A stretch of 64,000 nt of DNA from Tricholomella constricta (taxonomy: Eukaryota > Basidiomycota > Agaricomycetes > Agaricales > Lyophyllaceae): contig JAACJP010000012.1 of the NCBI GenBank assembly GCA_013368375.1, forward strand, positions 905,291 through 969,290. Direction: 5' to 3'. Shown one piece after another: positions 660 to 56,207 of this stretch; position 1 is the stretch's first letter, and the number at the start of each line of letters is the position of its first letter. Under the pieces are notes generated by a model. It did no database searches, was not told the origin of the DNA, and was given only the letters and a program-made list of their open reading frames with translations. A program made the position numbers and the translations under genes.

Positions 660-3398
660 TCAGAGAGGAAGAGGAACCAGACCCAAGGAGCGACAGTGAC
701 GGAGATGTAAGGGAAGAGGAAGAAGCTTCGTAAGGATATCTGCGGTCATCTCGGAGGTGGAAATCCATGAGGTAACGAACGAGCCAGAGCGAATGTGTTC
801 ACGGATAAAATGATAACGGATGTCTATATGCTTCGAGCGTGAAGAGGTGGAATCAGAGTTCGCAATTTCGATAGCGCTCTGGTTGTCACAGAGTAAGGGA
901 AAAGGATGAGGAGCTGGGAGGCCAAGAGAGCGTAGAAATTGCCGGATCTAGATAGCTTCTTTCATTGCATGGGAGATTGACATATACTCTGCTTCGGTCG
1001 ATGATAAAGCGATGGTGCGCTGTCGAATAGCGCTCCAGGAGACGAGGCTCGAATACATAAAGAATACGTATCCGGAAACGCTGCGGCGATCAGACTCGTC
1101 CGAAGCCCAGTCGGCATCCATCATTCCGCAGTCGCTAGGGACGAGGAGACGAAGAGGCGGACCAATGGGAGACTGGGAGAAGTTGTATTCCAGAGAGTAG
1201 TCAAGAGTCGAAATGAGGTAACGAAGGACTCCCTTAGCGGCAAGGAGATGGGCTCGAGACGGAGAGGCGTTGAATTGGCCGAGAGCCATAGCCGTGAACG
1301 CCAAGTCGGGACGAGTGCATAAAGCAAGGTATAGGATAGATCCCACAAGGCGTTGAAAATGGACGGTGACCTCATCGTCCGGGACCTCAGGCAATGCATT
1401 AGGAGGAGCAGGAGGGAGAGACGACAGTTTCTTATGAAGTGGAAGAGAGGCGGGTGCCGCTGAGCTAAGATTGTACTGGGCAAGGAGATCGACGACGAAT
1501 GACTTCTGGGAAAGCCAGAGTTTATTGAGGGAGCGGTCACGAGTCACGCGAATGCCCAGGTACATGGAGGCAGCACCGAGATCAACGACCTTAAAAGACT
1601 TGTTCATCTCCGAGAGGACCCAGTGATAAAGAGCAATGGAGTTCGTAGCAACGAGACCGTCATCGACGTGAACGGGGATGATGATGAGCAGAGGCTGATT
1701 GTCGGAAGGCATTGGGATGGAAGGATGGGGAGGGGCCGTGAAGCGAGCATAGAAGACTGCGTGGTCGACATCGCAGCGAACTAGGCCAATGGACTCGAGT
1801 ACGCGGCGAAGAAGAGCGTACCATTCATGGGAGGATTGCTTCAGGCCATAGATCGCACGAATGCATAGGTACACGAGAGTTTTATCGGCTTCAGGAAAAC
1901 CCGGGATTTGCTTGCAGTAAAGGAGGTGGAATAGCAGGGCATTGAGGAAGGCCGTTTTGACGTCGAATGTGAAGAGATGTAAATTATGCTTGGTGGCGAA
2001 GGCGAAAACAATGCGGATGCTGGTCAATTTAGCGACGGGGGAATACGTATCGCCATAATCTTCCGGACGCTGAGCAAAACCACGAGCAACTAGACGAGCC
2101 TTCTCAAGACCCCGTATGATGGATCCATCGGGATTGTGTTTGAAGTCGTATACCCAGCGAAGACCTATGGCTTTGTGGCCTGGAGGGAGGGTACACAGCT
2201 TAAAAACACCAAGATCCATAAGACTTTGATATTCTCGCTGCATCGCGGCAAGCCAGACGGGAGCGTCGGGACGGGAGATAGCCTCAGCGTAGCTAGCCGG
2301 AGGTTCATCAGGATTGAATGGGCGAGGAGTCTTCCAACGAAGAGCCTCGGGATGAGCGGAATAGGCCTTATAGTCGGCGATAGCTGAAGACTCCATGGAT
2401 AAGAGATCCGAGGGAATCGAAGTGAATGTGTCCGCGGAAAGAAGGGAAATGAAATCCTCGATGGCATCGTCGGAATGAAGCGGGAAGTCAACCCCAGAAA
2501 GCGCAGAGTCAGCAAACTGTCGAGCCGCCCGGTTAGCACGAAGACGAGCAAGGTTATCATCACGATTCTTAATGGACTCAGCGTATTCGCGTCCACGGTC
2601 GGTTAAGGAAGGGATTTGACGAGGACGGGGCTGGACAGGAGAATCTCCAGAAGGCGATACGGTGACGAGAGGAGGAGAGGGAAGAGAATCGGAGGACGGA
2701 GGAGAGGTCGAGGACGAAGGAGAAGGGGGGGTCACCGCAACATTGTGAGGACGAAGAGCCCCACGGACGCTTTCATTGAAGATAACGTCACGAGAAAAAG
2801 AGTATTTCCCGTTAAGATCCTGAACACGCCAGCCAATACGATGTTCTTCATACCCCACAAAAATGGCTTCAAAACGGCGTGGACCACCTTTGGAACGAAG
2901 CTCAGGGGGAATAGCGACGAAACACTGGCAACCCCAGACTCGGAGATGTGCCAAATCCGGCTTCTTTCGCTCCATAAGTTCATAAGGTGTGAGAGGAGCA
3001 TCGAGGGTAGAAGTGGGAAGTCGATTACGAAGGTATTGTGCAGTAAGAATCACATCACCGAAGAACGAAGGAGGTAAACCAGAGTCGGCGAGAAGTGTCT
3101 GGGCGGAGTCCTGAAGAGTGCGCATATAGCGTTCAGCCTTGCCGTTTTGAGAGTGTGCGTATGCGGCAGTAACTTGGTGTTCGACACCACGCGACGCGAA
3201 ATGTTCTTTGAGAACACTTCCCACAAATTCACCAGCGCCATCGGAACAGACCGCACGCACACGTTGGCCAGATTTCAGTTCCCAAGCAGCTTCAGTGTCT
3301 TTGTAATGGGAGGTCGCAGCATCCTTATGTGAGAGAAGACGGGTACTCCCAAAATTCGAATAATCATCGAGAATTGAATGAAAGAATGTATGACCTTG
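660..3398 (-). pseudogene. Copia-1 pol: integrase (distal), reverse transcriptase, RNase H
   Basis: This is the distal half of the copia-1 polyprotein. From 3398 the frame picks up the integrase core exactly where it stops at 14372 on the other side of gypsy A, with LDDYSNFG and CSDGAGEF carrying integrase aspartates. The RVT_2-type reverse transcriptase follows, with its catalytic HVDDGLVAT, then RNase H with DADWASD and SSTEAEYM. A TAG at 948-950 stands where copia RNase H normally has Trp (EAI-stop). The same frame then continues through CDNQSAI and KHIDIRYHF to a natural stop at 660-662. The element is therefore one nonsense mutation (TGG to TAG) plus one insertion away from an intact frame. 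It acts in cytoplasmic virus-like particles when functional. Confidence 0.92.
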
Positions 3399-3403
3399 TG
3401 GCG
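3399..3403 (+). repeat. Gypsy A target-site duplication, left copy (TGGCG)
   Basis: TGGCG is repeated at 14367-14371 on the other side of the element. It lies in copia-1 integrase sequence. Confidence 0.9.
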
Positions 3404-3624
3404 TGTAAGGGCGCTTACTATCTTATCGACTAAGCTGATCTAATCGTATCTTATCGACACGATTATGCTATTGTTTGGCAACACCTTCCGGTGTTGCCTA
3501 TTTAATCCTTTACATTACATAATTAAATAGTAGACCTTGTACACCTATACGTAGCAATCGACAGACTTGTCAAGCTTACGTCTAGCGTGCACAGCAAGGT
3601 CCCCAATCTTGTAACTCCGTTACA
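3404..3624 (+). repeat. Gypsy A 5' LTR
   Basis: 221 bp, TGTAAGG...GTTACA. It contains a perfect 9-bp hairpin, GGCAACACC (3477-3485) and GGTGTTGCC (3490-3498). It differs from the 3' LTR at one base (CTAAGCTG here, CTAATCTG there). Confidence 0.93.
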
Positions 3625-3825
3625 TTTTTTTAAGCTACCTTGCTTTCTATTGCTGCGTACCCACGACATTACGCAGAACCACATTCCATTTAGAACACCC
3701 ATCATCAAAAGAACCCACGAGACCCAGACCCGATGACACCAACTCCCACATCCGGAAAGAGCTGAACTCCGGTCTTCGAGGATGCGCTCGCAGCGCATCC
3801 TCCATCACAACTTCCACTGCAACCA
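3625..3825 (+). other. Gypsy A leader: non-tRNA primer region and three strong hairpins
   Basis: The LTR is followed by a T-run and TTAAGCTACC rather than a TGG-type tRNA primer site. ACCTTGCT (3637-3644) is complementary to AGCAAGGT (3593-3600) inside the LTR, which hints at self-priming as in Tf1. An in-frame ATG at 3733 is closed by TGA at 3763-3765, and the gag frame is then open from 3766. Perfect hairpins lie at 3778-3802 (11-bp arms) and 3811-3832 (9-bp arms), and a third begins at 3843. Confidence 0.6.
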
Positions 3826-6825
3826 GTGGAAGTCGGATCAGTCGCTGGTGGACAAAGTCCACCAGCGCAGAATACACTAGGATTAGAATCGGAGGAACCT
3901 TGGCCGATAGCAAGCACCAATGTGCCGGGGAGCTTGGCCGACGAATTGGCCCGGTCATATCGACCTGGCCCCACGGCAGGAAGCAGATGGCCAGACAGCC
4001 GTCTGTCAAGTAGAGCGTTCGGGGCGTCCACCCTGAGCATAGTCAAGATGGAGTCGGACGAAGACGACTTGTCCGACCCCGAGGCCAATGAAGAAGAAGC
4101 CAGCGATAGGGAATTGCTGGCGCTAAAAGTGAAGCAATTCTGGGACACCACCGATGTTGTTAGCGAACATCGACGAAGACGACTAGAGGAACGAGTGGAT
4201 AGGCTCGTTCTACGATCAACCGGAGCACAGTCCGTTGGAGAAATGGTCGTACAGGAGTATGCCGACCGATACTTGGAAGCGCTGTCCGTAGTAGTTACGG
4301 AATACAGGAAGAAGTACCCTAAGGGAACTTCGAATTCAGCAGTCAGCTCGATCGCTGGGACTCCTATACCTAAGAAAGCTCCGCTCAACAAAGGAAAAGG
4401 TCGTTGGGATGACCTTTTCACCCCGCAAGCAGTGGCCTCGGGATCGAACCAGCCTCTTGATGAGGCTGCTATGGCAGTATCTGCGCTGCATCAAGCGCGC
4501 CAGTTAGGAGAATCTGACGACGATTATCGTCGTCGGGCCGCGGCAGCGAAACGCGAAAGAATGACTCGCGAAGAGCACCTTGCGCAACCACAAGGTTCCC
4601 GATGGGCCCCTGTTAGTGAGTCTACATTAGACCCACCCACTGAGCGTAAGGACACGAATTCGCAACTAGCTGGCACTGAAAGCGTGCCAGCTATTCAAGT
4701 ACCTCCGGAGGCTAAGGATGGCCGTGTTCCATTAGCGAAAGAGTGGAACAACCGGATCGCTTACCAGCGTCTGAGAAATGCTGATCTATCACGGAGCAAG
4801 TTCACGAATTATGACGACCAAGGAGTCGTCTTTGAAGGACATATGCCTGTGGATGAGATGGCGAGGCAATGGGCCTCGCAAACTCAAGGTTCGGATGGTG
4901 GGTTAGTAACTGGATTGGAAGCCGTCGAAAAGAATAATTCGACGGCGATAGCTAACGGTCGTCGAGACATGCGGGTTCAAATAAGTGAACCCGCGGAATA
5001 TGCGCAGCCTCGAGCTCAGACTCGAGGCTATTCAATGCCTGCTCCGATCCGCCGGAGTCAATCAATTGCGGACGGAATACATGCTGCCGGAGAGCAGCAT
5101 AAAACTAAGATGCATGAGCGATTGCATCAATTAATGCACGAGCGTTTGTCGGTACGACTGTCGCTTCCGGACGGGATGAAATCTCGGCGTGCGGACTCAA
5201 AGTCCGTAGGCACTTATAGTGGAAGTGCAAAGTTCGGCGACCTTGAAGAATGGCTGTCGAGCCTCGTCGTGATGCTGGCAGTGAGCCAGTTTGGAGGAGA
5301 AGAACGCGACCAAGAGCGCGTTCTGATAACATCCGAGTTTCTCGATGGCGAAGCTCGAAAGTGGTACAATCGCCACGTTATACATGTGAACCGCGAGAAG
5401 CAGTTCTGGACGTTTGAAGACGTCGTACTTGGATTGTATGACCGGTTCGTGCTACCCTCAACCATGCAAGATGCTCGTAACGACTTTAATGCCGTTACTT
5501 ACTCGGCGAGCAAAGGAATACAAGGTTTATATGATGACCTTGTGGACCATGCCATGAATATGGCAGCAAGAACGGACGATTGGACGTTCCTGGAGAAATT
5601 CCTCAAGACACTTCCGCGTGAGATGCGGAAGGCATTATTCGATGACGGGCTATCACCCGAAATCAACACGGCCCAAGAGTTCCTAGCGGTGGGCTTAGCA
5701 CACCAAGCCACCCAGAAGACGGCTGATTACTTTGAGCGGAACATAACCGCTCAGCGAAATCAACCGAGTCAACCGCGGAAACCAGATGGGGGGCGAGTAA
5801 ACACCCCACAAAACAATTTCAACAGGACTCGACGTGTGTTTGGCGCACTTAATGAAAAACCATACGCCAAGCTAGCGTATCAGGATCAACCGGGACGTGG
5901 AGAGCAAAAGCTCCACGTCGAGAAACCAGCGATGAAGACGGGAGATCGTCCGCGTTACGATCAAACCAAAAACCACAATCATCACAACCACCCCCCGGGG
6001 GAAGTGTGCTTTAATTGTGGGAAACTAGGGCATTTTGCAAAAGATTGCAAACAGCCCAAGAAACAGCGAGCGTTCCTACGGGCCGCACGTACAGCGGCAC
6101 CTGACGCAGCAAGTGAGGCGGACGACGAAGATACTTCTACCGAGGACCCGGACGGACGAGACAATGGACGCCCTGAGACCGAGGCGGACAATGAAGACGA
6201 AGGCGATGAGTTCGTAGATATGGAGGTCTACGAAAATGAATACTATGCTCGGGACGATGAGACCGAGCGTATGTTTGCAATGACAGAAGTCATTGCGTCA
6301 GAAGAACGCAATGATAAACCACCAAGTCGTAAAGTGAAAGTGCGGACGGGTAGGGACAAGATTGCTCGTCCCGTAGTCCCGATAAAGGACAAGGAGTGCC
6401 TGGTCACCTACATTAATGTAGGTGGACATGAGGCTTGGACCCTCTGGGATTCTGGGAGTACGACTACCGGACTTACGCCGTCATTCGCTCAAGTGGCCGA
6501 TATTCGAGTGTTTCCGTTGGAGGATCCATTAATCCTCCAGCTCGGAACTAAAGGAAGTCGGGCCACAGTAAATTTTGGCACGACGGTGGAAGCCGTTCTT
6601 CCAGGGTTTAAAGGCAAGGTTTACATGGACCTTGCTAACTTTGATCGATACGACGTGATTATAGGCACGCCGTTTATGCGCGCAAACAACGTCGTGCTGG
6701 ACTTTAACCGTGACGAAGTTGTCGTCAATGGAGTCGCTACACCAGCGACTAAAGTAAAAATGGAGGATACCGCGATGGCCGAGTTAGACGCCATCGGTCA
6801 TTGGAGAAACGAAGAGAATGACTAA
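3826..6825 (+). CDS. Gypsy A Gag-protease
   Basis: The frame is open from 3766 to the TAA at 6823-6825. The true start is uncertain: the base-3826 codon is GTG, the ATG at 3733 is cut by a stop, and the first uninterrupted in-frame ATG is 4048. Counting from 3826, an acidic and charged N-terminal region is followed by a Gag capsid domain (about residues 455-650, with a helical region ending EFLAVGLAHQAT). A CCHC nucleic-acid-binding knuckle, CFNCGKLGHFAKDC, lies near residue 728, then an acidic linker, then a retropepsin with the active-site DSGST near residue 875 and the downstream VIIGTPFM flap-strand region. Gag packages the RNA and the protease matures Gag-Pol. Pol follows in the -1 frame with a 4-nt overlap. 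Confidence 0.9.
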   Translation: MEVGSVAGGQSPPAQNTLGLESEEPWPIASTNVPGSLADELARSYRPGPTAGSRWPDSRLSSRAFGASTLSIVKMESDEDDLSDPEANEEEASDRELLALKVKQFWDTTDVVSEHRRRRLEERVDRLVLRSTGAQSVGEMVVQEYADRYLEALSVVVTEYRKKYPKGTSNSAVSSIAGTPIPKKAPLNKGKGRWDDLFTPQAVASGSNQPLDEAAMAVSALHQARQLGESDDDYRRRAAAAKRERMTREEHLAQPQGSRWAPVSESTLDPPTERKDTNSQLAGTESVPAIQVPPEAKDGRVPLAKEWNNRIAYQRLRNADLSRSKFTNYDDQGVVFEGHMPVDEMARQWASQTQGSDGGLVTGLEAVEKNNSTAIANGRRDMRVQISEPAEYAQPRAQTRGYSMPAPIRRSQSIADGIHAAGEQHKTKMHERLHQLMHERLSVRLSLPDGMKSRRADSKSVGTYSGSAKFGDLEEWLSSLVVMLAVSQFGGEERDQERVLITSEFLDGEARKWYNRHVIHVNREKQFWTFEDVVLGLYDRFVLPSTMQDARNDFNAVTYSASKGIQGLYDDLVDHAMNMAARTDDWTFLEKFLKTLPREMRKALFDDGLSPEINTAQEFLAVGLAHQATQKTADYFERNITAQRNQPSQPRKPDGGRVNTPQNNFNRTRRVFGALNEKPYAKLAYQDQPGRGEQKLHVEKPAMKTGDRPRYDQTKNHNHHNHPPGEVCFNCGKLGHFAKDCKQPKKQRAFLRAARTAAPDAASEADDEDTSTEDPDGRDNGRPETEADNEDEGDEFVDMEVYENEYYARDDETERMFAMTEVIASEERNDKPPSRKVKVRTGRDKIARPVVPIKDKECLVTYINVGGHEAWTLWDSGSTTTGLTPSFAQVADIRVFPLEDPLILQLGTKGSRATVNFGTTVEAVLPGFKGKVYMDLANFDRYDVIIGTPFMRANNVVLDFNRDEVVVNGVATPATKVKMEDTAMAELDAIGHWRNEEND

Positions 6826-9800
6826 AAGTCACAGTAGAAGATGATGATGATCCTGATAACGAGGGTAGGCCGATAAACAGCCTACCAAAGGATCACCCAG
6901 CACTTCTATTATCCGATGAAGAGTTTCAAGAAACTCTTAAGGAGGGGGATAAGCCACCTCCGAAGAAGAGAAAACCCCAACGACAACAGCAGAAGGCACA
7001 AAACGAGCCTTCGAACGAACGAGCACGGACTCACGAGCCATGCGAAGAACGCCAGCGCGATAATGAAGCGCGTAAGACGAGCGGGGCCGACAAGGATACG
7101 GAATCAGAGCCGTATACGAATGCGAGTAATCGATCATTTTGGGATAGACCAAATCCACATCCACAATATGAGTGGATGTTCGACCCACGGATGCCGCAAG
7201 AATGGAACGCAGTAATAGCGTCAATGCGGGCTCACGAAGGAAGAAATGTAGGCACGCGAGGACAAGCGTACCGAAATCCACGGCCTGAGGAAGTATCGGA
7301 GCCAACGGAAATGAATTTTCCGGTGAATATACAACGGGCTAAACGGCCGTTGTATCGGTTACCAGTGAAGGATGAGAGTGACTTTGCTCTCGTAAAACTA
7401 CGAGCTAGGTTTGATGTTAAACCCAGCAATAAAGACACAGCGCACATTCGCGCTGCAAGAACGGTGAACGGAAAAGGTAAGGCACCCAATGGAGGCCTTA
7501 CCACGGAAGATTATCCACGACTTCGCCAGCAATGGCATGACGAATTCGAAGATATGGTGGGTGGTACGAAACAACAGCTACCACCCTGGCGGGAAGTCAA
7601 TCACGAAATTACTCTCGTCGACGATGAGAAACAGTACCAGTACCACGCGCCGAGGTGCCCAATGTCCCTTCGCGAGGAATTCTACGCGAAGGTCAATCGG
7701 TATACAGATTCTAAATGGTGGGAGCCTCGTTCGGTAAAGCAAGCAGCGCCGCTGCTATGCATCCCGAAAAAAGACGGCTCCCTGAGAACACCCTTGGACG
7801 CACGGCAGCGTAACGACAATACGATCAAGGATGTTACGCCCTTGCCAGACCAAGAAATCATTCGCGAGGATGTTGCCAGAGGGAAGATACGATCAAAGAT
7901 TGACTTAACGGATGCGTACGAACAAGTACGCATCCTCGAGAAGGACGTACACAAGACCGCCTTTGCAACGATAGCGGGAACGTACATTAGCAACATAATG
8001 CAGATCGGGGACTGTAACGCCCCCGCAACATTTCAACGATTAATGACGTCAATTTTTCGGGACGTCATTGGGAAGTTTATGCATGTATACTTGGACGACA
8101 TATTCATATTTTCGAACTCCATCGAAGAACATGAAGATCATCTTCGAGTAGTGTTCGAACGATTACGCGAACAGTCCCTTTATTTGAAGTGGAAGAAATG
8201 CGAACTATATTCGGATCGCGTCGATTGCCTTGGTCATATAATCGACGACCAAGGAATTCACCCCGACGCCGATAAATTGGCACGGATTCGCGATTGGAGG
8301 GTCCCACGGAATTACAACGATATACAGCGATTCGTTGGATTGGTTAATTATCTGGGTCAATTCCTCCCAGATATATCCGCGTACACTGGGCCACTAATGG
8401 CGATGACCGAGAATGGGTTGCCATTCTATTGGAGACCAATTCATCAACGATGCTTTGAAATGATAAAGCATATATGTTGCACGACGCCAATTATTCGGCC
8501 TATTCAACCGAAGACAGACGAACCAATTTGGATTATATGTGACGCCTCCAAGTCAGGCGTCGGTGCGATGTATGGTCAAGGACCTATGTGGATCCAAGCT
8601 CAGCCGGCTGGATTCATGTCCAAAAAATTCACGAATGCACAGCAGAATTACGCCGTGCATGAACTCGAAACCTTAGCTATCCTCGAAGCATTACTTAAGT
8701 GGGAGGATAAACTTGTGGGCTATAAAATCCACATCATTACCGACCACAAAGCCCTCGAATTCTTTAAGACCCAGGTGAATTTATCACCTAGGCAGCGTCG
8801 ATGGATGGAATACATGTCGCGATTTAACTTCGACATTACCTATGTGAAAGGCGAACTGAATAAAGTCGCCGACTGTCTATCGCGATATTTCGAGAGCGAT
8901 AACCATCACGATCGTTACGACGTCCACGACTTCGTAGCTGCCGATGCTAGAATCGATCCTACTGGTGAAGATTTACCAGTACCACGATACCATGAAATCG
9001 TGGAAAAAGTAGTTGAAATTCGAGCGATGAAGGACGTAGAAATACGTCGAAGCAAGCGTCTTCAAGAACGCCAGGAGGATCGAGATGTAGAAGCCCAGAT
9101 AATGGAGGCTGCGGCACCAAGTATTGCATCCGGACCATCGTCACACCTTCAAAAAAGCCAGAGGCCAACCGAACAGGAACATACGGTCGGAGATATGGTC
9201 CTCGGAAGGGACACAGTTGCCCCTCCCCCAGACAAAACGGACGAAAAGATCCGTAACGACGTTATCCTGGGATACCCAAAGGATAAACTATTTTCAGTGA
9301 TTCTCACTAACCCAACGGACTTTCGTACATTCACTACGAAAGACAATCTGATTTGGACCACGAACGCTATAAATGATAGCGTTCTATGCATACCGCGAGA
9401 ACCCGAGATCATCACGTCAATTGTTGAGCAAGCCCATAAAACTATGGGCCATTTCGGTGCCGAACGGACTACTGAATATATTCGACGATGGTATTGGTGG
9501 CCATCACTAGCCACGACTGTTCGTACGTTTTGTAAAACGTGCGAGTATTGCCAACAGATCAAGACGTCAAATCAGAAACCGTTAGGGAAACTACATTCCC
9601 TGCCAGTACCCACTAAGCCTTGGGATTCTATCGGAATGGACTTTATCGGTCCATTTCCAGAATCAAAGGGATATAACTACCTATGGGTAGTAATTTGTCG
9701 TATGACGAGTATGGTGCATATGATACCCATACATACAACGATGACGGCAGCCCAATTATCATGGGTATACCTACGGGAAATCGTCAGGTTACATGGCCTG

Positions 9801-10721
9801 CCAAGCTCGATCGTAAGCGACCGAGACTCTAAGTTTACCTCGCGCTGGTGGCGCGAACTACATAAATTATTAGGAGCTAAGCTTCTAATGTCGACATCTT
9901 TCCATCCTCAGACGGATGGACAGACGGAGCGAGCCAATCGTAGTATTGGCCAGATATTTCGCGCCGTTGTAAGGCATGACCAAAAGGATTGGGTAGATCG
10001 TATACCCATGGCCGAGTTCGCGATAAATGCGAGCGTATCGGCTACCACCAAGTTCGCTCCATTTGAGTTGAATGGTGGATACATGCCATCCATGTTGAAA
10101 GAGATACGCTCAGACAGCGTAATACCAAAGGGAATTCGGGAATACGCTGAACGCGCATTGCAGAACATAGCGGAGGCGCATGACGCTATAATCGAAACGC
10201 GCGTATTTCAAACGCGCGAGGCAAACAGGCGTCGATCCACTGGTCCGGAAATAAAGGGGGGTGACTTGTTATATTTATCTACCAAGAACTTGAACCTTCC
10301 CAAGGGACGCGCCCGGAAATTATGTCCGAAATTCGTCGGGCCCTACAAAGTATTGAAGGCCATGCCAGACACGTCGAACTATACGCTGGAATTACCTACG
10401 GCGCTTATGGAACGTCGAATACATCCAACATTTCACATATCGCTGTTGCGCCCATACTACGCAACAAACGATGCAATGTTCCCTAATAGAACTCACCCGG
10501 AACCCTATGATTTTGGGGCGCCGGACGATCACGAATGGTTTGTCGAAGAGATTTTGGGCCATAGATGGACCCAAAATAATAAAGTGGAATACCAAGTTAG
10601 GTGGAGTCTAGGTGACACCACCTGGGAATCGCACAACAATTGTAACAAGTTAGCGGCATTGGACCGCTACTTGGAATTGCAAGGGGTGGGCAGCGCATCG
10701 AGGTTGCCGCGACGAACCTAG
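6822..10721 (+). CDS. Gypsy A Pol: reverse transcriptase, RNase H, integrase, chromodomain
   Basis: The frame opens at 6822, directly after a TGA in the same frame, and overlaps the gag stop by four bases, so expression would need a -1 shift or reinitiation. The first ATG is 7176. Counting from 6822: reverse transcriptase about 300-480 with catalytic YLDD near 422; RNase H about 570-680 (CDASKSG, HELETLAIL, DHKALEFF); integrase HHCC finger about 865-905 (HKTMGHF ... CKTCEYC); core with the catalytic triad in GMDFIGP (938), VSDRDSK (997) and TDGQTERANR (1034); C-terminal chromodomain about 1237-1290 (FVEEILGHRW ... YQVRWSLGDTTWES). All key residues are present. The chromodomain is expected to steer integration to methylated-histone chromatin. 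Confidence 0.94.
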   Translation, partial: LKVTVEDDDDPDNEGRPINSLPKDHPALLLSDEEFQETLKEGDKPPPKKRKPQRQQQKAQNEPSNERARTHEPCEERQRDNEARKTSGADKDTESEPYTNASNRSFWDRPNPHPQYEWMFDPRMPQEWNAVIASMRAHEGRNVGTRGQAYRNPRPEEVSEPTEMNFPVNIQRAKRPLYRLPVKDESDFALVKLRARFDVKPSNKDTAHIRAARTVNGKGKAPNGGLTTEDYPRLRQQWHDEFEDMVGGTKQQLPPWREVNHEITLVDDEKQYQYHAPRCPMSLREEFYAKVNRYTDSKWWEPRSVKQAAPLLCIPKKDGSLRTPLDARQRNDNTIKDVTPLPDQEIIREDVARGKIRSKIDLTDAYEQVRILEKDVHKTAFATIAGTYISNIMQIGDCNAPATFQRLMTSIFRDVIGKFMHVYLDDIFIFSNSIEEHEDHLRVVFERLREQSLYLKWKKCELYSDRVDCLGHIIDDQGIHPDADKLARIRDWRVPRNYNDIQRFVGLVNYLGQFLPDISAYTGPLMAMTENGLPFYWRPIHQRCFEMIKHICCTTPIIRPIQPKTDEPIWIICDASKSGVGAMYGQGPMWIQAQPAGFMSKKFTNAQQNYAVHELETLAILEALLKWEDKLVGYKIHIITDHKALEFFKTQVNLSPRQRRWMEYMSRFNFDITYVKGELNKVADCLSRYFESDNHHDRYDVHDFVAADARIDPTGEDLPVPRYHEIVEKVVEIRAMKDVEIRRSKRLQERQEDRDVEAQIMEAAAPSIASGPSSHLQKSQRPTEQEHTVGDMVLGRDTVAPPPDKTDEKIRNDVILGYPKDKLFSVILTNPTDFRTFTTKDNLIWTTNAINDSVLCIPREPEIITSIVEQAHKTMGHFGAERTTEYIRRWYWWPSLATTVRTFCKTCEYCQQIKTSNQKPLGKLHSLPVPTKPWDSIGMDFIGPFPESKGYNYLWVVICRMTSMVHMIPIHTTMTAAQLSWVYLREIVRLHGLPSSIVSDRDSKFTSRWWRELHKLLGAKLLMSTSFHPQTDGQTERANRSIGQIFRAVVRHDQKDWVDRIPMAEFAINASVSATTKFAPFELNGGYMPSMLKEIRSDSVIPKGIREYAERALQNIAEAHDAIIETRVFQTREANRRRSTGPEIKGGDLLYLSTKNLNLPKGRARKLCPKFVGPYKVLKAMPDTSNYTLELPTALMERRIHPTFHISLLRPYYATNDAMFPNRTHPEPYDFGAPDDHEWFVEEILGHRWTQNNKVEYQVRWSLGDTTWESHNNCNKLAALDRYLELQGVGSASRLPRRT

Positions 10722-10921
10722 AATGTGGCGCGGTCATGTGATCACGGCGATCAGAAAAATTACATAACCATCAAAAGTTATGACAGAAGGTTAAATATGT
10801 TTTGGCGCTAGGACGCGCAACCAAATTTTCAACCAACAACCACAACATGTACCCAACCGCAGGAGCAAATTCAAGCAACGACGCGACTTGAGGCGGCGAC
10901 AGCCGCACCGACTATCAAAAT

Positions 10922-12196
10922 ATGGCCTCGGGATCGAGTCCAAAAGGGGAGGAGGTGCAGGGACGCGCGGAAAGCGCGCCCCCGCCCCCAACCTATATGG
11001 GCGTGCAGCCCCAAACATTTCAATACCCATCGGTTGGCCACATGAGCCAACTGCCCCACCAGGGGCAACCGCCCCATCAGGGGCAACAACTATACCCTAT
11101 GGTTGGCCACATGAGCCAACCGCCCCAGCAGGGGCAACAACCACAGACGGGTGGGTTCTACCCACCGTCGATGGCATATCAACATATGCCATCAATGCAG
11201 AGCTTCATGGGGTACCCACCACCGACGTGGTACCCCCAAATGCCCGCCCCAATCGTACCGCAAAATACGCGGTACAACGAGTCAGAGAAAATGGAGGTGG
11301 ACGACCAAAGTCGTCAAAAAACACCTACTCCACCGGCGCAAGTGGCGCGCAGCGAACCGGCGCGGCAATATGTCGCGCCATATGCAGACGAACAAAGAGG
11401 TTCGTTTGCGTCGAGTTCGCGGAGGCCGGCAGACGATTGCGCAGCGTCGTCTGCGTCAAGTTCGAGGAGACCATTTGCAGACGATGGTCTCCTTTCGTCT
11501 ATCTTGGACCGATTGGAAGACGCGGGTATTCACCGCGAGTTTTGTGATTTCTTGGACGACGGGATGGCGCAGCTGGTTGTAACCCAGCTGCTTGATGCGT
11601 ACGATGGAGTTCGCGCGGACTTGAGACGCGTGAAGGCGAGAGAGTCGGCCATGGCTGAGCAACTCAGCCTGGCAAAAAAGCGACCGGCAGTGGCGTTGCC
11701 AGATCGCGGGGAGGGACCATCGTCCCGACCCATGAAAAGACAGCAGACCGAGGTGCGGCGAGAAGAACGCACCTTATATGAACCCAGGCGTCAGGAACGA
11801 CGCCCGGAACAAGAGTATCGGCGGTTCGACCGCCATCCCGACCAAGAAGTGTGGCGTGATGAGCGCCCACTTGATTATGGTCCTCAACGAGAGGAGCGTC
11901 GCGAGGACCGAGGGACGCGCGAAGTGCGTCCCTTACCGGCTCGAGAAGTCGAGCGAAAGGGCGTCGACAGCGTCGACATCCGCGGTGCAGGCACCGCAAC
12001 AGCAACAGATAGCGGGAGCATTACTCCCACTACCGACCCCGGGAGAAAGCCGGGTACGGAACCCGGAGAGAGGTTCCCAAAAGAAGGAACCTGTTGGCAA
12101 GTATACCTTGCCGGCACCATCGCCTGCACCACCCACTACGATGGTGCAGCCCCCATCGCCTCCGCCAAAGGGCAAAGGCAAACAAAAGGCGTCTGA
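10922..12196 (+). CDS. Gypsy A ORF3a, unknown low-complexity protein
   Basis: ATG at 10922, 201 bp after the pol stop. About 424 residues if read to the stop at 12196. The N-terminal third is rich in Pro, Gln, Met and Tyr, with degenerate repeats of GHMSQ(L/P)P. The middle contains a predicted helical segment (SSILDRLEDAGIHREFCDFL). The distal part is a charged Arg/Glu-rich stretch (RREERTLYEPRRQ) and looks like real protein up to about 11940. After that the sensible reading seems to pass to the +1 frame of ORF3b. I do not recognise a family. The position between pol and the 3' LTR is where env-like or accessory ORFs occur. It is either a separate protein or the first half of a frameshifted ORF3. 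Confidence 0.6.
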   Translation: MASGSSPKGEEVQGRAESAPPPPTYMGVQPQTFQYPSVGHMSQLPHQGQPPHQGQQLYPMVGHMSQPPQQGQQPQTGGFYPPSMAYQHMPSMQSFMGYPPPTWYPQMPAPIVPQNTRYNESEKMEVDDQSRQKTPTPPAQVARSEPARQYVAPYADEQRGSFASSSRRPADDCAASSASSSRRPFADDGLLSSILDRLEDAGIHREFCDFLDDGMAQLVVTQLLDAYDGVRADLRRVKARESAMAEQLSLAKKRPAVALPDRGEGPSSRPMKRQQTEVRREERTLYEPRRQERRPEQEYRRFDRHPDQEVWRDERPLDYGPQREERREDRGTREVRPLPAREVERKGVDSVDIRGAGTATATDSGSITPTTDPGRKPGTEPGERFPKEGTCWQVYLAGTIACTTHYDGAAPIASAKGQRQTKGV

Positions 12197-13769
12197 CCCG
12201 TACGCCAAATTTATGGACGAGTCGGACTACGGCGAGTCCTCCGACGACGAGAAACCCGTCAGCAAGAAGAAGGCTGCCGGGCAAAAGCAGCATCGCGAGA
12301 ATATGGCTCGCAAAGCTCAGAAGGAGGCGCCGGGACGGATCCCTGAAGAGCTTGGGGTGGTCTTTATCAACGGCCGCCACGAGCGGGACAACCGCTTCTG
12401 GGATATGGTGTCGCGGACGGTATATGTGTCGTCCGCCCAGAATCGTGCCTTTGCGCTAGGCACAGCAGCTCGCGTCTCAGAGAGCGAGCTAGGGACGGGA
12501 CAAAACTCCCGTCCCTCAGATGGACGGCTGTATGCCGTCGCACCACGTGGGTTCCCAATGAACCCCCGTGAAGTTGATCAGCTCTATGAGCTGATCAATA
12601 ACCGACGCCATGGGGTGAGGGATGAAGAGCGGGCCGAGGCCTTTATGCTCTTCAGAGAATTCCGTCGGATTACCCTATCGGTCGCGCCTCACTTGCGCGA
12701 CCGAGCCATGGCTCGTGCAGCCATGGACAAATTCCGAAGCGTCTCACGACCGTTCAGTGAACGGTCACCCATCTGGAATGCCCCGGTCATTAGACGGCCG
12801 GGTAAAGCATTCGAATATCGGCATGACAAGCCGACACGAGGAGCTGGTCTCCCCCAACCCGGCCCAGCTCATGCATTGGATGTCGAACATTGGTGTCGAC
12901 ATATGATTCACCATGGGCGTATTGGTTCTAAGAACCAATATGGAGGTATCGTAATGGACTACCGGTTCAGCGTTCATCGTCGCGGGACCTGGGGCTACTT
13001 ACTGGCGAACGTATTGTCGCCAGTAACTCATAGTATGCGGGCATGGTTTATGCGAATTTTCGCAACCATCACCGCACGGCCATACTTCTATGCAGAAGCG
13101 GTGGCGGCCCATAACGAGGCCAACCCTGATCGGCCGTTCACGCCGATTACCGGACCCGAGGTTATTATCCCTCGGATCCAACCTACCGCTCCCGAAGGGT
13201 GGCTGACGGAACAAGGTGTCCTACAACACCTTATTAACTGTGGTATTCCAATTAGTTGGATAAACCACAGCTATACTTATGGTCTACACTATTTAGACCA
13301 TAACTACTCTACTGCAGGTCCTCATAAGGACCTGTTCCACAATGTTGACGACGATCGCGTTCGTCGACTCGATCAATTGGGCGTGCCACCCGCCATTCCG
13401 GAATGGGACGGGTTGGAGTTTCAGAACGAGGGGCTGGACTGTTTATCCAGCGTGGAATGGATGTTTGTGGGTGAAGACCCACATTTCCGAGAACTCCGTG
13501 TTCGGAGAGGGGAGTTTCCCCCTCCGGACCTGCACACTCCCGCTCCATCGGGATCGACGTCTACCAACGTCGAAATGGCGGACCCGGCGGCACTCACACC
13601 TGCCCCCGCGACACCCTCCACAGTCGTGGCAGCTCCAATAGGAGCTACCGAAACCCAAGTGGACCCCGTGTCGGCCCTCACAGGGCCTCTATCACTGGCA
13701 GTGATTACCACTAGCCAGGGTCCGGTGGAATCCAACCCCACCGACCCCGACACAGTGATGGAGTCATAG
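11778..13769 (+). CDS. Gypsy A ORF3b, unknown conserved-looking protein
   Basis: The frame is open from about 11778 (ATG) to the stop at 13769, overlapping ORF3a by 419 bp in the +1 frame. The reading looks protein-like from about 11950. A Pro/Ala/Ser-rich linker leads to a basic patch (VSKKKAAGQKQHRENMARK), then a folded-looking region of about 350 residues with many aromatics (VDQLYELINNRR, EHWCRHMIHHGRIG, TWGYLLANVLSP, ARPYFYAEAV, GVLQHLINCGIPISWI), and a disordered Pro/Thr tail. I recognise no catalytic motif, signal peptide or membrane segment, so it is not an obvious envelope. The function is unknown. The hairpin pattern continues unbroken through it, which ties it to the element rather than to captured host sequence. 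Confidence 0.65.
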   Translation: MNPGVRNDARNKSIGGSTAIPTKKCGVMSAHLIMVLNERSVARTEGRAKCVPYRLEKSSERASTASTSAVQAPQQQQIAGALLPLPTPGESRVRNPERGSQKKEPVGKYTLPAPSPAPPTTMVQPPSPPPKGKGKQKASDPYAKFMDESDYGESSDDEKPVSKKKAAGQKQHRENMARKAQKEAPGRIPEELGVVFINGRHERDNRFWDMVSRTVYVSSAQNRAFALGTAARVSESELGTGQNSRPSDGRLYAVAPRGFPMNPREVDQLYELINNRRHGVRDEERAEAFMLFREFRRITLSVAPHLRDRAMARAAMDKFRSVSRPFSERSPIWNAPVIRRPGKAFEYRHDKPTRGAGLPQPGPAHALDVEHWCRHMIHHGRIGSKNQYGGIVMDYRFSVHRRGTWGYLLANVLSPVTHSMRAWFMRIFATITARPYFYAEAVAAHNEANPDRPFTPITGPEVIIPRIQPTAPEGWLTEQGVLQHLINCGIPISWINHSYTYGLHYLDHNYSTAGPHKDLFHNVDDDRVRRLDQLGVPPAIPEWDGLEFQNEGLDCLSSVEWMFVGEDPHFRELRVRRGEFPPPDLHTPAPSGSTSTNVEMADPAALTPAPATPSTVVAAPIGATETQVDPVSALTGPLSLAVITTSQGPVESNPTDPDTVMES

Positions 13770-14145
13770 GTCGGGGAGACAACTTAATCCCCCCGTCAAC
13801 GAACCGACCTCGACACGCAGGAGGTATCGTCGGGACGACCGCCATTGTAAGGTGTAGACCACCTTACTCCCGAGGAGCAAACCGCAGGTCGCGTACTCAA
13901 ATATACGCAACACCGGATGTCCTCAATCCCAGGCCACCTCGAGCGGCACTTGGAGGCCGTTTAGTGGAACTATTGTCTCCACTATGTATTCGGTCATGAA
14001 TACGTACCAGTAATACGTATTTCTGTGCAGGCGATATTGGGTGTAGGTCGCCGGGACCTACACCCTCCCTCTTGCCTTAATGTTATTATTACTTATTGCA
14101 TTACTCCCTGGTGAAGATCGCTACTAGCGATCTTAAAGGGGGGTA
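13770..14145 (+). other. Gypsy A 3' UTR with hairpins and polypurine tract
   Basis: No ORF. It contains perfect inverted repeats, including 14039-14049 with 14055-14065 (11-bp arms, 5-nt loop) and 14114-14122 with 14126-14134 (9-bp arms, 3-nt loop). It ends in the purine-rich AAAGGGGGG (14135-14143) just before the 3' LTR, the expected plus-strand primer. Confidence 0.8.
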
Positions 14146-14366
14146 TGTAAGGGCGCTTACTATCTTATCGACTAATCTGATCTAATCGTATCTTATCGAC
14201 ACGATTATGCTATTGTTTGGCAACACCTTCCGGTGTTGCCTATTTAATCCTTTACATTACATAATTAAATAGTAGACCTTGTACACCTATACGTAGCAAT
14301 CGACAGACTTGTCAAGCTTACGTCTAGCGTGCACAGCAAGGTCCCCAATCTTGTAACTCCGTTACA
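14146..14366 (+). repeat. Gypsy A 3' LTR
   Basis: 221 bp, one mismatch to the 5' LTR. It is followed by the right TSD copy TGGCG at 14367-14371. Confidence 0.93.
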
Positions 14367-14371
14367 TGGCG

Positions 14372-17216
14372 TCTGGACAGGAAAGGGACCACAGGTGTCC
14401 ATGTGAAGAAGCTCGCAGACTCTCGATGCCCGACGAGCGAAGTGATCATAAGGACGCTGAGGTTGTTTCCCAATAAGGCAGGGAATGCAATGGGACTCCG
14501 AGAAGGCGCCAGAATATACAATGCCTGTCGCATACGGTTTGGTCAAGGTTGCTCGAGTCGCATCAGAACCCAGGTGACCAAAGCGACGATGCCAAAGATC
14601 GGGAGAGATAATGATGCGGGGAAATCGCAAGTCCGAATCCTGAAGGGCAATGGCCGGAAGGACAACGGCATCGGCGAGATCGACGGGAGTGGGAACGGAG
14701 GGAGGCCGAATGAAATCACAAGAAAGGAATGAGAGTCGTCGAATGACGGTAGCATCAAGGGTGTGACCAGAGAGGCGAGACTTGGATGCAGGGAAGTGAA
14801 TAGTTGTCGAGTTCGGTTCGAAAGTCAATCGAGTACCCAGTTCCGTCATACTACCAACCGACAGAAGGTTAATGGGGGCATCAGGAGCATGCAGGCATTC
14901 CCGAAGATGATAGATAACATTGTGTCCATCGAGAATCGTCTTGAACCGGACTTCACCCTTAGCCAGAGTCTGGAGAATCCCACAATTCGCAGTGCCGACA
15001 GAAATCGCCTGCGAGGTATCATAAGTCCAGAAAAGTTCACGATCACGGATGATATGGACAGTGCAGCCGGAGTCGAGAAGGGAGTTATAGCGGGAGGACA
15101 GTGAGAGCAAGGCGACGGAGTCGGTAGTATAGACGAACTCGGTATACGGTGGAAGTGAAGGCGGAGGAGGATCATCCGGAGGAGTCGCAGGCGTGCACAC
15201 GGTATACAAGTCAATCAAATCAATTTGAGCTTCGGCTTCGGTTTCTACGACAGGCGATAAAGGGCGAGTAGGTTCAGAGGTCGATACAAGAGCAGTGGGG
15301 CGACTAGCAGCCTTTTGAGCCAGAAAACGCTCCTTTCCACCTTCATCACCACCGCCAGGTCTCCAACAGTTCGGACATAAATGGCCGTAGGATCCGCAAT
15401 TATCACAAATGGGCCAATCCGAAGATGAAGGTGTCGCAGTAGTCGGTGGCGTAGGCTGAGCAGAGTCGGCGGAAGAGGCAGTAGCAGCAAGCGAAGCGGA
15501 CGGAATAGAACAGCATTGGGGAGGATGTGAGATCGCAAGACGACGGAGGTCCATTTCGATTTTGAGAACCTCATTGGCAAGGTAGTCGAAAGAGAGCTGA
15601 CGATCATCCTCGAGACGCTCGATGTCCAAACGAACCGAAGCACGGAGACTATCAAAGGCGGAAATGTGGGGAAGGCCGTCGACAAATTTTTGGGTGAGCT
15701 CATAATACGTGAATGGCCATCGAGTTGACTGGGTTTGCATGAACGCTTGTTGCCAGGCTGTGACGTAGTTAATGATTCCACCAATAGAATTTGCCTTGCG
15801 CGAGAGGGTGGTCGATTTGATGAGTTCGGCGGCAGCAGCGTGTCCAACCCCATACTTCTCCCGGAGAATGAGCAGAAGGCCACGAGAGGAAGAGACGCAA
15901 TGACCGTAAACGTCCCGTTTCTCAAGAGGGAGGAGTCGACGAGGAATATTGCCGAGGCGACTCGTGATGATATAAGAAACCACGTCATCTAGACGCCACC
16001 AAGCCTGATACGCCTCCAGTTCAGGAGAACCAACACCGTGGATAGCGAAGTCAACGAAAGGAGGGAAGGTAGGGATAGACGCCGGGTCCGAATAAGCGCC
16101 CGGAAGAGGATCGGGAGCGACGAATGCCCAAAGGCCTGAGTGTTCAATCGTACTCTGGACGCCTGAGTACCAGTCCGGCCAGTCTTCAGCCCGAGTAAGT
16201 AAAGGAATGTGCGTAGTAGAAGGTAGTTTGGTTTCCGTAAAGTTGTAGGTAGACGGTACAGAGGTAACAGAATGAAGCGAGGGAGCAGGAGAAGCTTGAC
16301 GAACAGGTAACGGGGAAGAAGAAGCGGCGGAAGAAAGACGAGAAGCATGGGAAACAGAAGGTGGGGGAATCGAACGTCGAGAATTATGGGAAGCGGCAGA
16401 AACAGGTGAAGGGTAGAATAAAGGCGTACGAACAGGGGGAGAGGGGGCAGGAACAGGGATGGCAAGTGGATAACGAGGTTGTGGAGCCAAAGGTGTATTA
16501 AGTCGAACATGAATGGGAGAGTGAATGGGGGTTGAAAGAGCACTAGCATGAGCACGACGTAAAGGCGAAGGAGTAATCGGGGAAAAATGAGAAGGCAAAG
16601 AAGAATGCGATGAAGAATGAACAGAAGGTGCAGGAAGTGAATTTAAACGTGAAGTAGGAGGAGGAGAAATAATCGCTAGTGAAGAGGTAGGTGCATGTTC
16701 AGGAATGGCAGAAGAATTCGCGCGAGAAGGCAAAAGAACGGGAGAAGGCTGCATATATGCAGGTGAAAAGGGTCTGGGAACGGGTGATGGGGTCGGTGGA
16801 GGGTGATAAGAAGTATTTGGTTCAACATGAGCTTCAGAAGAATCGATAATAGTACTGTAATGCTTGTGTGGGGGAGCAGGTATAAGGCGACGGGACTCAA
16901 CTGGATTTAAACGAGGTAATGTATGAGACCATGTTATCCCCGCCGCTGGGAAAGAAACAACGGCAGCTGGAGTACGTAAAGGAACAGAATTGGAATTCGG
17001 GACTGAAGACGTGGATATCCTGGACGAAGCACGAGCGCCTGATTGATGGGCCGGAGTAGATTGGGCACGGAGATGAGGGCGGCCTGAGCGGTTCGAGGAC
17101 GTAGAAGGGACACGAGATGGAGGCGGTGCAGAGCCAGTCGGAGCGAAAGGATCAGCCATACGAAGCCAAGATGTATGCGCGAGAGGGAAACAGAGACTGT
17201 AGGTGAAGACCGACAA
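14372..17216 (-). CDS. Copia-1 Gag, protease and proximal integrase
   Basis: Minus-strand frame from an ATG at 17216 (a second candidate at 17160, MADPFAPTG, is equally plausible) down to the gypsy A insertion. From 17160: about 330 residues of Pro/Ser-rich sequence, then a copia-type Gag region (EDWPDWYSGV ... LWAFVAP), a CCHC knuckle CDNCGSYGHLCPNC near residue 583, a retropepsin with LLDSGCTVHI near residue 695, the pre-integrase HHCC region (LWHRRFGHLG ... CIPCLIGKQ), and the start of the integrase core (HMDTCGPFPVQTP). The reading continues without a frame change at 3398 once gypsy A and one TSD copy are removed. The long Pro/Ser N-terminus is unusual for copia Gag but uninterrupted. Confidence 0.92.
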
Positions 17217-17299: not shown

Positions 17300-17309
17300 G
17301 CCCATAACC
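17300..17309 (-). other. Copia-1 primer-binding site (initiator tRNA-Met anticodon region)
   Basis: On the minus strand the 5' LTR is followed at once by GGTTATGGGC. Its complement, GCCCATAACC, carries the CAU anticodon in an initiator-Met-like loop. This resembles Drosophila copia, which is primed by a cleaved half of initiator tRNA-Met. The same ten bases follow the LTR of copia-2 (18076-18085). Confidence 0.65.
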
Positions 17310-17576
17310 TGATGGCCAGATATGATCTAGAGTACGGAATCCTCAGTGTTCCGAGAAGGTAAGAACAGCTTTAGATTAATCAATATACCTAGAGTACGGA
17401 CTAGGGATATTGGGTAAATAGAAGAAGGGCTAGAGAACGGAAAGATACGTACATCCTCAGTGTTCCGAGAAGGTAAGAACAGCTGAGGATGGCGACGCGA
17501 CTGAGCGGAGGTATATGTACGGTCACGTGCCAAGCAGTACGTAAGTGATGAGAAAGAACGGGGACAAGTCCCAATA
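17310..17576 (-). repeat. Copia-1 5' LTR
   Basis: 267 bp, paired with 346-612. It is upstream of gag on the minus strand and followed by the TSD copy CTGAC (17577-17581). Confidence 0.92.
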
Positions 17577-17581
17577 CTGAC

Positions 17582-20100: not shown

Positions 20101-20255
20101 GTTGTTTTTAACGGAGCAGCGGACGGGATACACTGTACCACCATTGACGACAATAAAGTGCTCGCTGTGGCATTCACTGCAGCCGACCGCAGATCCGGTA
20201 CCCGGATGGTGAATATTGAACCTGGAACTGCTCCCTGCAATCCGGGACAGCAGAT

Positions 20256-20545
20256 TTGACCGGTCACCAATCCGATCTTCCGTCCAGTAGGTGTAGATTC
20301 TGAATATTCCGGATGCATTTCCTACGATCCGGTGACCTGTCCGATAGGTGTATATTCATTCCGGATGTGTTTCCTACAATCCGGTCACCTGTCCGGTAGG
20401 TATATATTCATTCCGGATGCGTTTCCTACGATCCGGTCACCTGTCCGGTAGGTGTATATTCATTCCGGATGCATTTCCTACAATCCGGTCACCTGTCCGG
20501 TAGGTATATATTCATTCTGGATGTATTTCCTGCAATGCGGGTAGC
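20256..20545 (+). repeat. KDZ left subterminal tandem repeat, 52-bp period
   Basis: Starts of TCCGGATG at 20308, 20360, 20412 and 20464, and a diverged one at 20516, give an exact 52-bp period with about five units. Each unit carries ATCCGGT, ACCTGTCCGGTAGGT and TATATTCATTCCGGATG. Subterminal arrays in DNA transposons are usual transposase-binding regions. That role is inferred here. Confidence 0.9.
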
Positions 20546-20624
20546 TCCACTTCATTGTTTCTTCACGCAGATCATAGGAACATCTCAATGCATTGCAAGG
20601 ATAGCAAATTATACAACATTAGGT

Positions 20625-32990: not shown

Positions 32991-33360
32991 GATGATGTAG
33001 CAAAAGAAACATGCCATTACTATTGTTGGAATATTCATTAAATGATTGCTGTATGCTACCTATGCACTGTTATTTGCTGAGCACCTTGTACCCTATCACA
33101 ACCGATCTCCACTGGAGTGTGAGTGAATTTGGATCTAGACATTAGATATTGCTGCTTGAAAAGTGTGCAGATCCACAATGAGGGGCTACATGTGTTACCT
33201 CAACTATACGTAGATTGCAGGTCATACTGCGCTGCCCAGGTCCGGATCCGGATATTCAAATCCCGGACCCAAAGAATGCATGGACTGATATCCAGACCAA
33301 GTAGGTGCTGCCCGAATACTAACGGTAATGGACCCAATGTGCAGATTGATATAGAGGCCA
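32991..33360 (+). other. KDZ right non-coding region
   Basis: No gene seen. It holds GGTCCGGATCCGGATATT near 33239 and a diverged partial copy of the 123-bp repeat that follows. Confidence 0.5.
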
Positions 33361-44482: not shown

Positions 44483-44548
44483 TCTCCTCCTTACTTGAAA
44501 TACCGACTGTCCCCAGTCGGTCCCGTGCATCGGTCAGGGGGTGTACGT
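44483..44548 (-). other. Gypsy C' internal remnant with polypurine tract (palindrome spacer)
   Basis: 66 bp. In reverse complement it contains CCCCCTGACCGATGCACG, a CCGACTG...CAGTCGG hairpin and AAGTAAGGAGGAGA, the same order as 56160-56221 just before the 3' LTR of gypsy C. So it is the last bit of the internal region of a second C element lying in the opposite direction. Confidence 0.85.
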
Positions 44549-56083: not shown

Positions 56084-56207
56084 ACCCTGGATATATATAC
56101 GTCGCCAGCACGTCGGCACCGCCACCTCCTCCTATCCCTACCCTTCTTTTCCAAGACGTACGCCCCCTGACCGATGCACGAGACCGACTGAGGACAGTCG
56201 GTATTTC

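Follow-up and report, generated by a model that had tools for sequence, protein, structure and literature searches.

Dense folding along a whole genome is known from some RNA viruses and phages, and genome-wide structure models of HIV-1 reportedly show a retroelement RNA that is structured over its whole length; gypsy A, the element analysed here, resembles the HIV-1 RNA in that respect. The property is best defined as GORS, which is carried by positive-strand RNA viruses, has a threshold of >3% folding energy excess (PMC3950689), has been tied to persistent infection of vertebrates as well as to the interferon response (PMC7642675, PMC3950689), reaches 23.4% as the highest folding excess among vertebrate RNA viruses and, in coronaviruses, keeps its overall level while single pairings change (PMC7642675). 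Gypsy A is a fungal LTR retrotransposon and not a GORS virus, but by analogy it appears to work like GORS. No earlier report of such a folded element was found among the listed results from the open-access literature searched, most subscription journals lying outside it.

Gypsy A lies on the + strand of the window (the whole stretch of Tricholomella constricta DNA analysed, 64,000 nucleotides) and is assigned by its sequence to the Ty3/gypsy-type LTR retrotransposons, having LTRs, a 5-bp target duplication, a gag zinc knuckle and RT-RNase H followed by integrase; the chromodomain at the C-terminal end of pol is weak (Chromo 17.7 bits, under the 25.1 cut-off). The pol domain set is common to Agaricomycetes Ty3/gypsy elements, and pol relatives occur in Phanerochaete (P. 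sordida), Trametes, Mycena (M. chlorophos) and Agrocybe (A. chaxingu) among the matches listed (120 of 1859). The 5' LTR (3404..3624, 221 bp, TGTAAG...TTACA) is 100% identical to the 3' LTR (14146..14366, located by repeat match and sequence), the target-site duplication TGGCG can be read directly at 3399..3403 on the left and at 14367..14371 on the right, and the insertion is recent. The LTR repeat match runs to 222 bases, the last being a chance match to the target duplication. The leader ahead of the gag ATG (3625..4047) carries hairpins at 3778-3802, 3810-3833 and 3843-3867 with arms of 10-11 bp; gag (4048..6825) has its zinc knuckle above cut-off and gag and protease domains under cut-off; and the pol frame (6822..10721, stop to stop, first ATG 7176) contains RT, RNase H, integrase and the weak chromodomain. 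ORF3a (10922..12196) and ORF3b (11778..13769) overlap in different frames, both without a Pfam match, and ORF3b has relatives in the named species Lyophyllum shimeji and Psilocybe cubensis. Hairpins in the 3' untranslated part (13770..14145) lie at 13847-13867, 13999-14021, 14039-14065 and 14114-14134, and a purine tract at 14135-14143 is presumably a candidate for the polypurine-tract role. Known RNA families were absent at gathering score from 3300-14500.

All 13 hairpin pairs listed in the initial annotation are exact inverted repeats at their coordinates, two of them one base pair longer than listed (3810-3833, and 14114-14134 with an arm of 10). Across 3404-14367, with the two LTRs and some hairpins in overlapping registers counted, there are 167, 100, 51, 30 and 16 perfect hairpins (loop 0-12) with arms of at least 6, 7, 8, 9 and 10 respectively, against means of 26.8, 6.7, 2.0, 0.67 and 0.13 in dinucleotide-preserving shuffles (n = 30; 26.8 ± 4.4 with a maximum of 42 for arms of at least 6). 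In the 53,036 bases of the window outside gypsy A there are 165 hairpins with arms of at least 6 and nine with arms of at least 9. When codons were preserved in the shuffles (100 per frame), the gypsy A frames still lay far over the shuffled range, with 42 hairpins vs 8.8 in gag (maximum 19), 49 vs 10.4 in pol (maximum 19), 16 vs 3.0 in ORF3a over 10922-11776 (maximum 9) and 43 vs 7.2 in ORF3b (maximum 14), whilst two copia frames of the window were without excess (4 vs 4.4 and 4 vs 5.0). The hairpin excess in gypsy A is real and large. Chance or composition as the source of the hairpins is ruled out by the dinucleotide- and codon-preserving shuffles. The wording that the element is 'built almost entirely' of hairpins was nevertheless too strong, since perfect hairpins cover 31% of gypsy A (3.4% of gypsy B and 6.2% of gypsy C). 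The excess is limited to loops of 0-20 nt and is highest at 6-8 nt (11.7-fold), with ratios of 0.86-1.32 at longer loops; the loops are A-rich (0.35 vs 0.28), and no loop motif of the kind that would mark sequence-specific packaging hairpins is prominent among them.

In 90-nt windows the folding energy of gag, pol and ORF3 is 25-35% under that of codon shuffles (sense z -11 to -14), and the control frames give z values of -2.6 (copia1), +2.4 (gypsy B) and -0.7 (gypsy C), so that the impression that the other elements lack the feature holds for the other frames tested, both in hairpins and in folding energy. The excess over dinucleotide-preserving shuffles (MFED; 350-nt fragments, eight shuffles per fragment) is 25.2% in gypsy A, with 30 of 31 fragments positive, and 1.8% elsewhere in the window (sd 8.3, 149 fragments), gypsy B and C being without dense folding. 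The edge of the folded region is sharp: values stay high in the fragments between 3501 and 14001, except at 10151 (-4%) and 8051 (8%), and the flanking fragments at 3151 and 14351 have 8% and 2%. As in GORS, many short-range stem-loops extend over the coding regions unconnected with gene borders, and the coding sequence appears to have been moulded, over its whole length, towards dense folding into small hairpins. The value of 25.2% lies over the vertebrate-virus maximum given in PMC7642675, with shuffling method and fragment step differing between the two, and perfect 8-11 bp hairpins are unusually numerous in gypsy A. Phage MS2 (NC_001417) has a similar folding excess (26.6%) and, like gypsy A, little strand contrast and no G.U pair surplus over shuffles, but few perfect hairpins (5 and 8, where 3.3 and 4.7 are expected), whereas gypsy A has many in the same comparison (42 and 49, where 8.7 and 11.3 are expected).

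Rather than marking a single odd element, dense folding characterises no fewer than three subfamilies, being common to gypsy A and two related subfamilies (A' and A'') within one 44-Mb genome. MFED in relatives is 20.1 (L042), 20.6 (L043), 20.3 (L053), 19.5 (L054), 24.1 (L057), 18.2 (L066) and 20.0 (L067). The sense folding excess is 20-22% in A' vs 24-27% in A, yet A' has far fewer perfect hairpins. Four pattern matches in viral_contigs included no true relatives. Of the copies, L015, L018, L019 and L026, which are short or in part misaligned, were left out of most A tests, L034 out of the final singleton tests and L038 (mixed orientation) out of all tests, and L001-L008 were not part of the tests. 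Antisense-strand folding excess in gypsy A nearly equals that of the sense strand. In 12 of 14 segments, with ORF3b redone as one of the 14, the sense strand has the larger excess (Stouffer -5.0 over 13 segments without ORF3b, -5.3 over 14 with ORF3b in the wrong frame; ORF3b in the right frame, z -1.4). This sense-strand bias is modest: only A' and a portion of A''1 show it clearly, it is not significant in A gag and pol alone, and 11 control frames jointly lean to sense too (Stouffer about -1.7).

Individual stems turn over. At 26.8% divergence only 5 of 67 hairpins are identical between relatives, stem pairs changed on both sides are Watson-Crick in 27 of 66 cases (both directions of one comparison; chance is one third), and strong position-wise conservation or covariation was not found among relatives. 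The paired, compensatory changes envisaged in the initial annotation are thus near chance, and single stems are neither conserved nor compensated, which had been named as counting against the idea; total folding is nevertheless conserved. Matched random change at the same divergence, a test that needs no polarity of substitutions, reduced the hairpins of L057 from 67 to 18.8 (59 in the real relative) and moved its energy from -29.6 to -22.9 (-27.5 in the real relative), and real energy lay under simulated energy in each of 13 overlapping comparisons, with z between -1.6 and -17.5. Two of the three A' comparisons show no maintenance of hairpin number (32 vs 33.2 and 28 vs 31.2), and in one the energy was maintained only weakly (z -2.5). 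As in GORS, then, the lineage keeps its level of folding while positions and pairings are poorly conserved, and simulated drift erodes the folding. In A and A'' paired sites vary less at divergences of 6% and 14%, though in A' not consistently so, an effect that is partly ascertainment; for stems common to two copies, with a third compared, stem/outside divergence ratios are 0.58 in A, 0.67, 0.81 and 0.89 in A'', and 1.38, 1.42 and 0.08 in A' (two unreliable rows with L018 and L019 were not used). When stems decay, G.U and A.C arise in similar numbers (28:27, 24:22, 38:39 and 39:34 in A''; 7:6 and 8:11 in A; 4:7, 3:3, 1:2, 5:6 and 8:4 in A'). Because MS2 too is without a G.U pair surplus, the G.U versus A.C test was given little weight against RNA-level selection.

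Substitutions were assessed excluding changes within 60 bases of piece ends, 5 of 372 singletons being without a context-matched control. CpG-transition singletons fall without regard to structure (dMFE +1.12 vs +1.15 random; 17 stems lost vs 16.6, 8 gained vs 4.8), whilst other private changes spare it (dMFE -0.02 vs +0.52 random; 16 stems lost vs 29.9, 22 gained vs 9.2) and have a dN/dS-like ratio of 0.24 vs 0.60 for CpG. In A''2, with outgroup context, stem loss was not under random (29 vs 30.8), while the energy signal persisted (+0.32 ± 0.12 vs +0.69). The first polarised test scored changes in the derived sequence only and so overstates gains and understates losses; single-copy branches tended in the same direction there, with observed and random energy changes of +0.30 and +0.78 (L054), +0.10 and +0.59 (L060) and -0.30 and +0.64 (L062), but L060 had fewer stem gains than random (5 vs 11.8). 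A single-base mutation bias, whereby RT errors or mismatch correction in cDNA hairpins favour bases complementary to a nearby arm, would fit the private non-CpG substitutions, which spare structure to much the same degree as lineage-fixed ones, and the equal perfecting of G.U and A.C mismatches (34 and 37 gains). We consider it unlikely, however: private changes are under strong protein constraint, and their dN/dS-like ratio indicates that they have already come through rounds of selection; nothing similar is seen in the remaining LTR-element frames tested in the window; and such a bias predicts no sense-strand bias.

The initial annotation had also offered template switching during reverse transcription, which would perfect imperfect palindromes and let hairpins build up without selection. 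Perfect arms, short loops, the like behaviour of G.U and A.C and the stem gains among private non-CpG changes (22 vs 9.2 expected) agree with it. One arm would, however, be copied from the other, and several differences are therefore expected in one arm; pooled over the 13 overlapping comparisons, one-arm:both-arm counts were 22:34 for two differences, 4:25 for three, 0:9 for four, 1:12 for five and 0:11 for six, so that the one-arm excess is absent from new stems (22/56, 4/29, 0/9). One-arm conversion as the main hairpin source is ruled out by this lack of signature. Template switching, which neither predicts a sense-strand bias nor accounts for an A' excess near that of A despite far fewer perfect hairpins, is in our judgement distinctly improbable. 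Selection on single-stranded DNA or cruciforms (in cDNA folding, integration or replication) instead of RNA would suit the almost equally strong antisense excess and the lack of preference for G.U over A.C, but is very improbable in view of the larger sense excess in 12 of 14 segments and of MS2, an RNA genome with equally little strand contrast.

Selection for a densely folded genomic RNA, which the initial annotation had put first, is thus the best supported reading, from folding energy, maintenance against matched change, substitutions and MFED, and we regard it as probable, with mutation bias the weaker account. Selection would act on the amount of folding and not on particular stems, so that stems would be born and lost by single substitutions while their density persists. 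Its likeliest benefit, suggested tentatively, may be that a predicted compact RNA hides its sequence from small-RNA-guided silencing or other antisense pairing, and matches to Argonaute (Piwi), RdRP and Dicer-dimer are present in the host genome; next come RNA stability or particle packing, which together are about as likely.

With many copies per genome, selection on folding would become measurable against a built-in neutral control, CpG decay, and synonymous sites of transposons are possibly non-neutral, which calls for caution in dating or comparing copies. Folding of MS2 strength in a fungal retrotransposon whose host genome carries an RNA-silencing gene set would uncouple the property from animal immunity. 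It is possible, if rather doubtful, that this lineage independently evolved whole-genome folding of RNA-virus grade as a passive counter-defence against host RNA silencing; if true, GORS would be the way in which RNA-based parasites in general respond to antisense recognition, rather than something adapted to animal immunity.

Gypsy A, a Ty3/gypsy-type LTR retrotransposon with two identical 221-bp LTRs, occupies 3404-14366 between TGGCG duplications. Copia-type frames on the opposite strand lie on both sides of it, as do repeats identical over 269 bases (345-613 and 17309-17577), so that gypsy A is an insertion nested in a copia element. Its gag carries a zinc knuckle. In pol, RT, RNase H and integrase domains score above the cut-off and a chromodomain below it. 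Two overlapping frames further 3', ORF3a (10922-12196) and ORF3b (11778-13769), gave no Pfam matches; these share 419 nt in different frames and hairpins are plentiful in both. Protein relatives, among 120 listed of 1859, carried Agaricomycetes names (e.g. Phanerochaete sordida, Trametes, Mycena chlorophos and Agrocybe chaxingu); ORF3b had three relatives, those with names being from Lyophyllum shimeji and Psilocybe cubensis. The host is therefore probably an agaricomycete. Inspection by eye revealed no tRNA-type primer site in gypsy A, and a complementary 8-mer in the LTR end (3593-3600, AGCAAGGT) and leader (3637-3644, ACCTTGCT) is predicted to pair.

The initial annotation had described perfect inverted repeats along the whole element, and all 13 pairs that it listed proved exact. 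With arms of at least 6 and loops of 0-12 nt, gypsy A contains 167 perfect hairpins, covering 31% of its length, against 26.8±4.4 expected (30 dinucleotide shuffles, maximum 42), and with arms of at least 9 it contains 30 against 0.67. The excess extends over loops of 0-20 nt and is highest at 6-8 nt. Every gene also exceeded its codon-preserving shuffles (100 per gene), with 42 hairpins versus 8.8 in gag, 49 versus 10.4 in pol, 16 versus 3.0 in ORF3a and 43 versus 7.2 in ORF3b, and the pol hairpins used all three codon registers (20, 13 and 16). In the enclosing copia element, both frames gave hairpin counts close to those of their codon shuffles.

In 90-nt windows the sense strand of gag, pol and ORF3 was 25-35% stabler than codon shuffles (z -11 to -14), with a nearly equal excess on the antisense strand, whilst sense-strand z values of other LTR elements in the window were -2.6 (copia1), +2.4 (gypsy B) and -0.7 (gypsy C), and nine other frames, two of them copia1, ranged from 10% less to 6% more folding than shuffled. 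For 350-nt fragments, the folding energy excess over dinucleotide-shuffled controls (MFED) averaged 25.2% across gypsy A and was positive in 30 of 31 fragments, the exception (-4%) being 10151-10500 in the C-terminal part of pol; the 149 fragments outside it averaged 1.8% (sd 8.3, maximum 37.6). Phage MS2, our positive control, averaged 26.6%, but its perfect hairpins barely exceeded expectation. Gypsy A is thus MS2-like in how much it folds and unusual in how perfect its stems are. The strongest folding elsewhere lies at 38851-39550 (two fragments, 38% and 32%), with a long stem of GGAATCC-like repeats at 38851-38960 adjoining a repeat copy at 39086. The window also holds an inverted repeat at 43439-45592 (1044-nt arms, 97% complementary, 66-nt spacing), with partial copies at 56156-57259, and tandem repeats at 33360-33797 (spacing 123 nt), 20254-20565 (52 nt) and 31896-32292 (87-111 nt).

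A genome-wide RT search gave at least 151 matches (150 of 755 candidates scored), and those listed fell into three main classes of RT identity, A (~92-100%), A' (84-90%) and A'' (64-71%). We sampled ~3.5-kb pieces of 30 A copies including the window's own (29 in the first alignment, fewer per test), six further A pieces, among which L060, L062 and L064 were 12-23% divergent, and 6.6-kb pieces of ten copies each of A' and A''. The pol proteins of these subfamilies share 54-65% identity with the A protein. Per 5,137 nt, A' copies had 25-32 hairpins versus 10-15 shuffled and A'' copies 40-51 versus 9-13, all 20 exceeding the mean of five shuffles; two A' pieces had MFED values of 20.1 and 20.6%, three A'' pieces ranged over 19.5-24.1%, and 3' pieces of one A' and one A'' gave 18.2 and 20.0%. 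On the simplest view, the trait is older than the split of the three subfamilies. Copies of A (L009-L037; 7862-8370 of the window) form groups ~6% apart, with intermediates, and their synonymous differences cluster within a portion of RT; lineages may have recombined here.

Individual stems turn over. At 26.8% divergence 5 of 67 hairpins kept identical extents, and base pairs changed on both sides were Watson-Crick in 27 of 66 cases versus one third by chance (two directions of one comparison); new stems arose by single changes distributed over both arms. Folding itself was set against 12 simulations per comparison, in which random substitutions kept the real number, type, position modulo three and region. 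At the same divergence, the 67 starting hairpins fell to 18.8±5.2 in simulation versus 59 in the real relative, and mean energy went from -29.6 to -22.9±0.4 versus -27.5. All 13 comparisons, which overlap, had the real relative stabler than simulated (z -1.6 to -17.5). Its hairpins outnumbered those of every simulation in 10 of 10 comparisons of A and A'' but in only one of three of A' (40 vs 33.5), the other two A' values not being above simulation (32 vs 33.2; 28 vs 31.2). Counting arms of at least 8, L062 did no better than its simulations (10 vs 9.0).

Private changes within tight copy groups allow a natural test of selection against mutation. CpG transitions, which usually betray the decay of methylated cytosines, were random with respect to structure (n=136; energy change +1.12±0.16 vs +1.15 random, stem losses 17 vs 16.6, gains 8 vs 4.8). 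Other private changes (n=231) spared it (-0.02±0.14 vs +0.52; losses 16 vs 29.9, gains 22 vs 9.2), and this accompanies protein sparing: their dN/dS-like ratio was 0.24, versus 0.60 for CpG changes and 0.14-0.31 between lineages, which implies that they had already passed through selected replication cycles. Lineage-fixed changes resemble them, with energy changes in A''2, a lineage of A'', of -0.12 vs +0.74 random (derived context) and +0.32 vs +0.69 (outgroup context, where stem loss was not below random, 29 vs 30.8), and stem losses in the L010 group of A of 7 vs 21.4 and 1 vs 10.9 (two contexts). We read this sparing as selection, with a bias in replication errors as a possible source, because the two classes are not fully separable.

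As for the level at which such selection acts, RNA is favoured, though not proven. Of 14 segments, 12 gave a negative value for sense minus antisense folding excess (Stouffer -5.3, segments of related copies not being independent), and -5.0 over 13 segments omitting ORF3b (z -1.4 in its correct frame), versus -1.2 for nine window controls and ~-1.7 with gypsy B and C. The bias was clearest in A' (z -4.5, -2.8 and -2.6; -0.8 in a short segment) and in one segment of A''1, a further lineage of A'' (z -3.0). Stems decayed about equally to G.U and A.C, a pattern that does not favour RNA, but the RNA phage MS2 lacks a G.U surplus too.

Genome-wide folded RNA is known from RNA viruses (GORS), where hundreds of stem-loops span coding regions at positions poorly conserved among related viruses, with values of about 15% in SARS-CoV-2, 7.5-10.7% in HCV and a vertebrate RNA virus maximum of 23.4% (PMC7642675). 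Element A has the same features and a folding excess above all of these values, although shuffling method and fragment step differ. Among the papers listed in searches of the open-access literature, none reported comparable structure in an LTR retrotransposon; two on Ty1 reportedly deal with its 5' region and with Gag binding, and whole-genome structure models exist for HIV-1 (PMC4666355). No motif was found in the hairpin loops of gypsy A, which counts against packaging through a repeated sequence-specific site. Candidate functions are avoidance of silencing, particle compaction and RNA stability. The host could plausibly silence by small RNAs, since its genome has matches to the domains Piwi (16 pieces), RdRP (18 pieces) and Dicer-dimer (three places). 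Stems with no more than 11 perfect base pairs fall short of what Dicer cuts and could conceal RNA from guide pairing.
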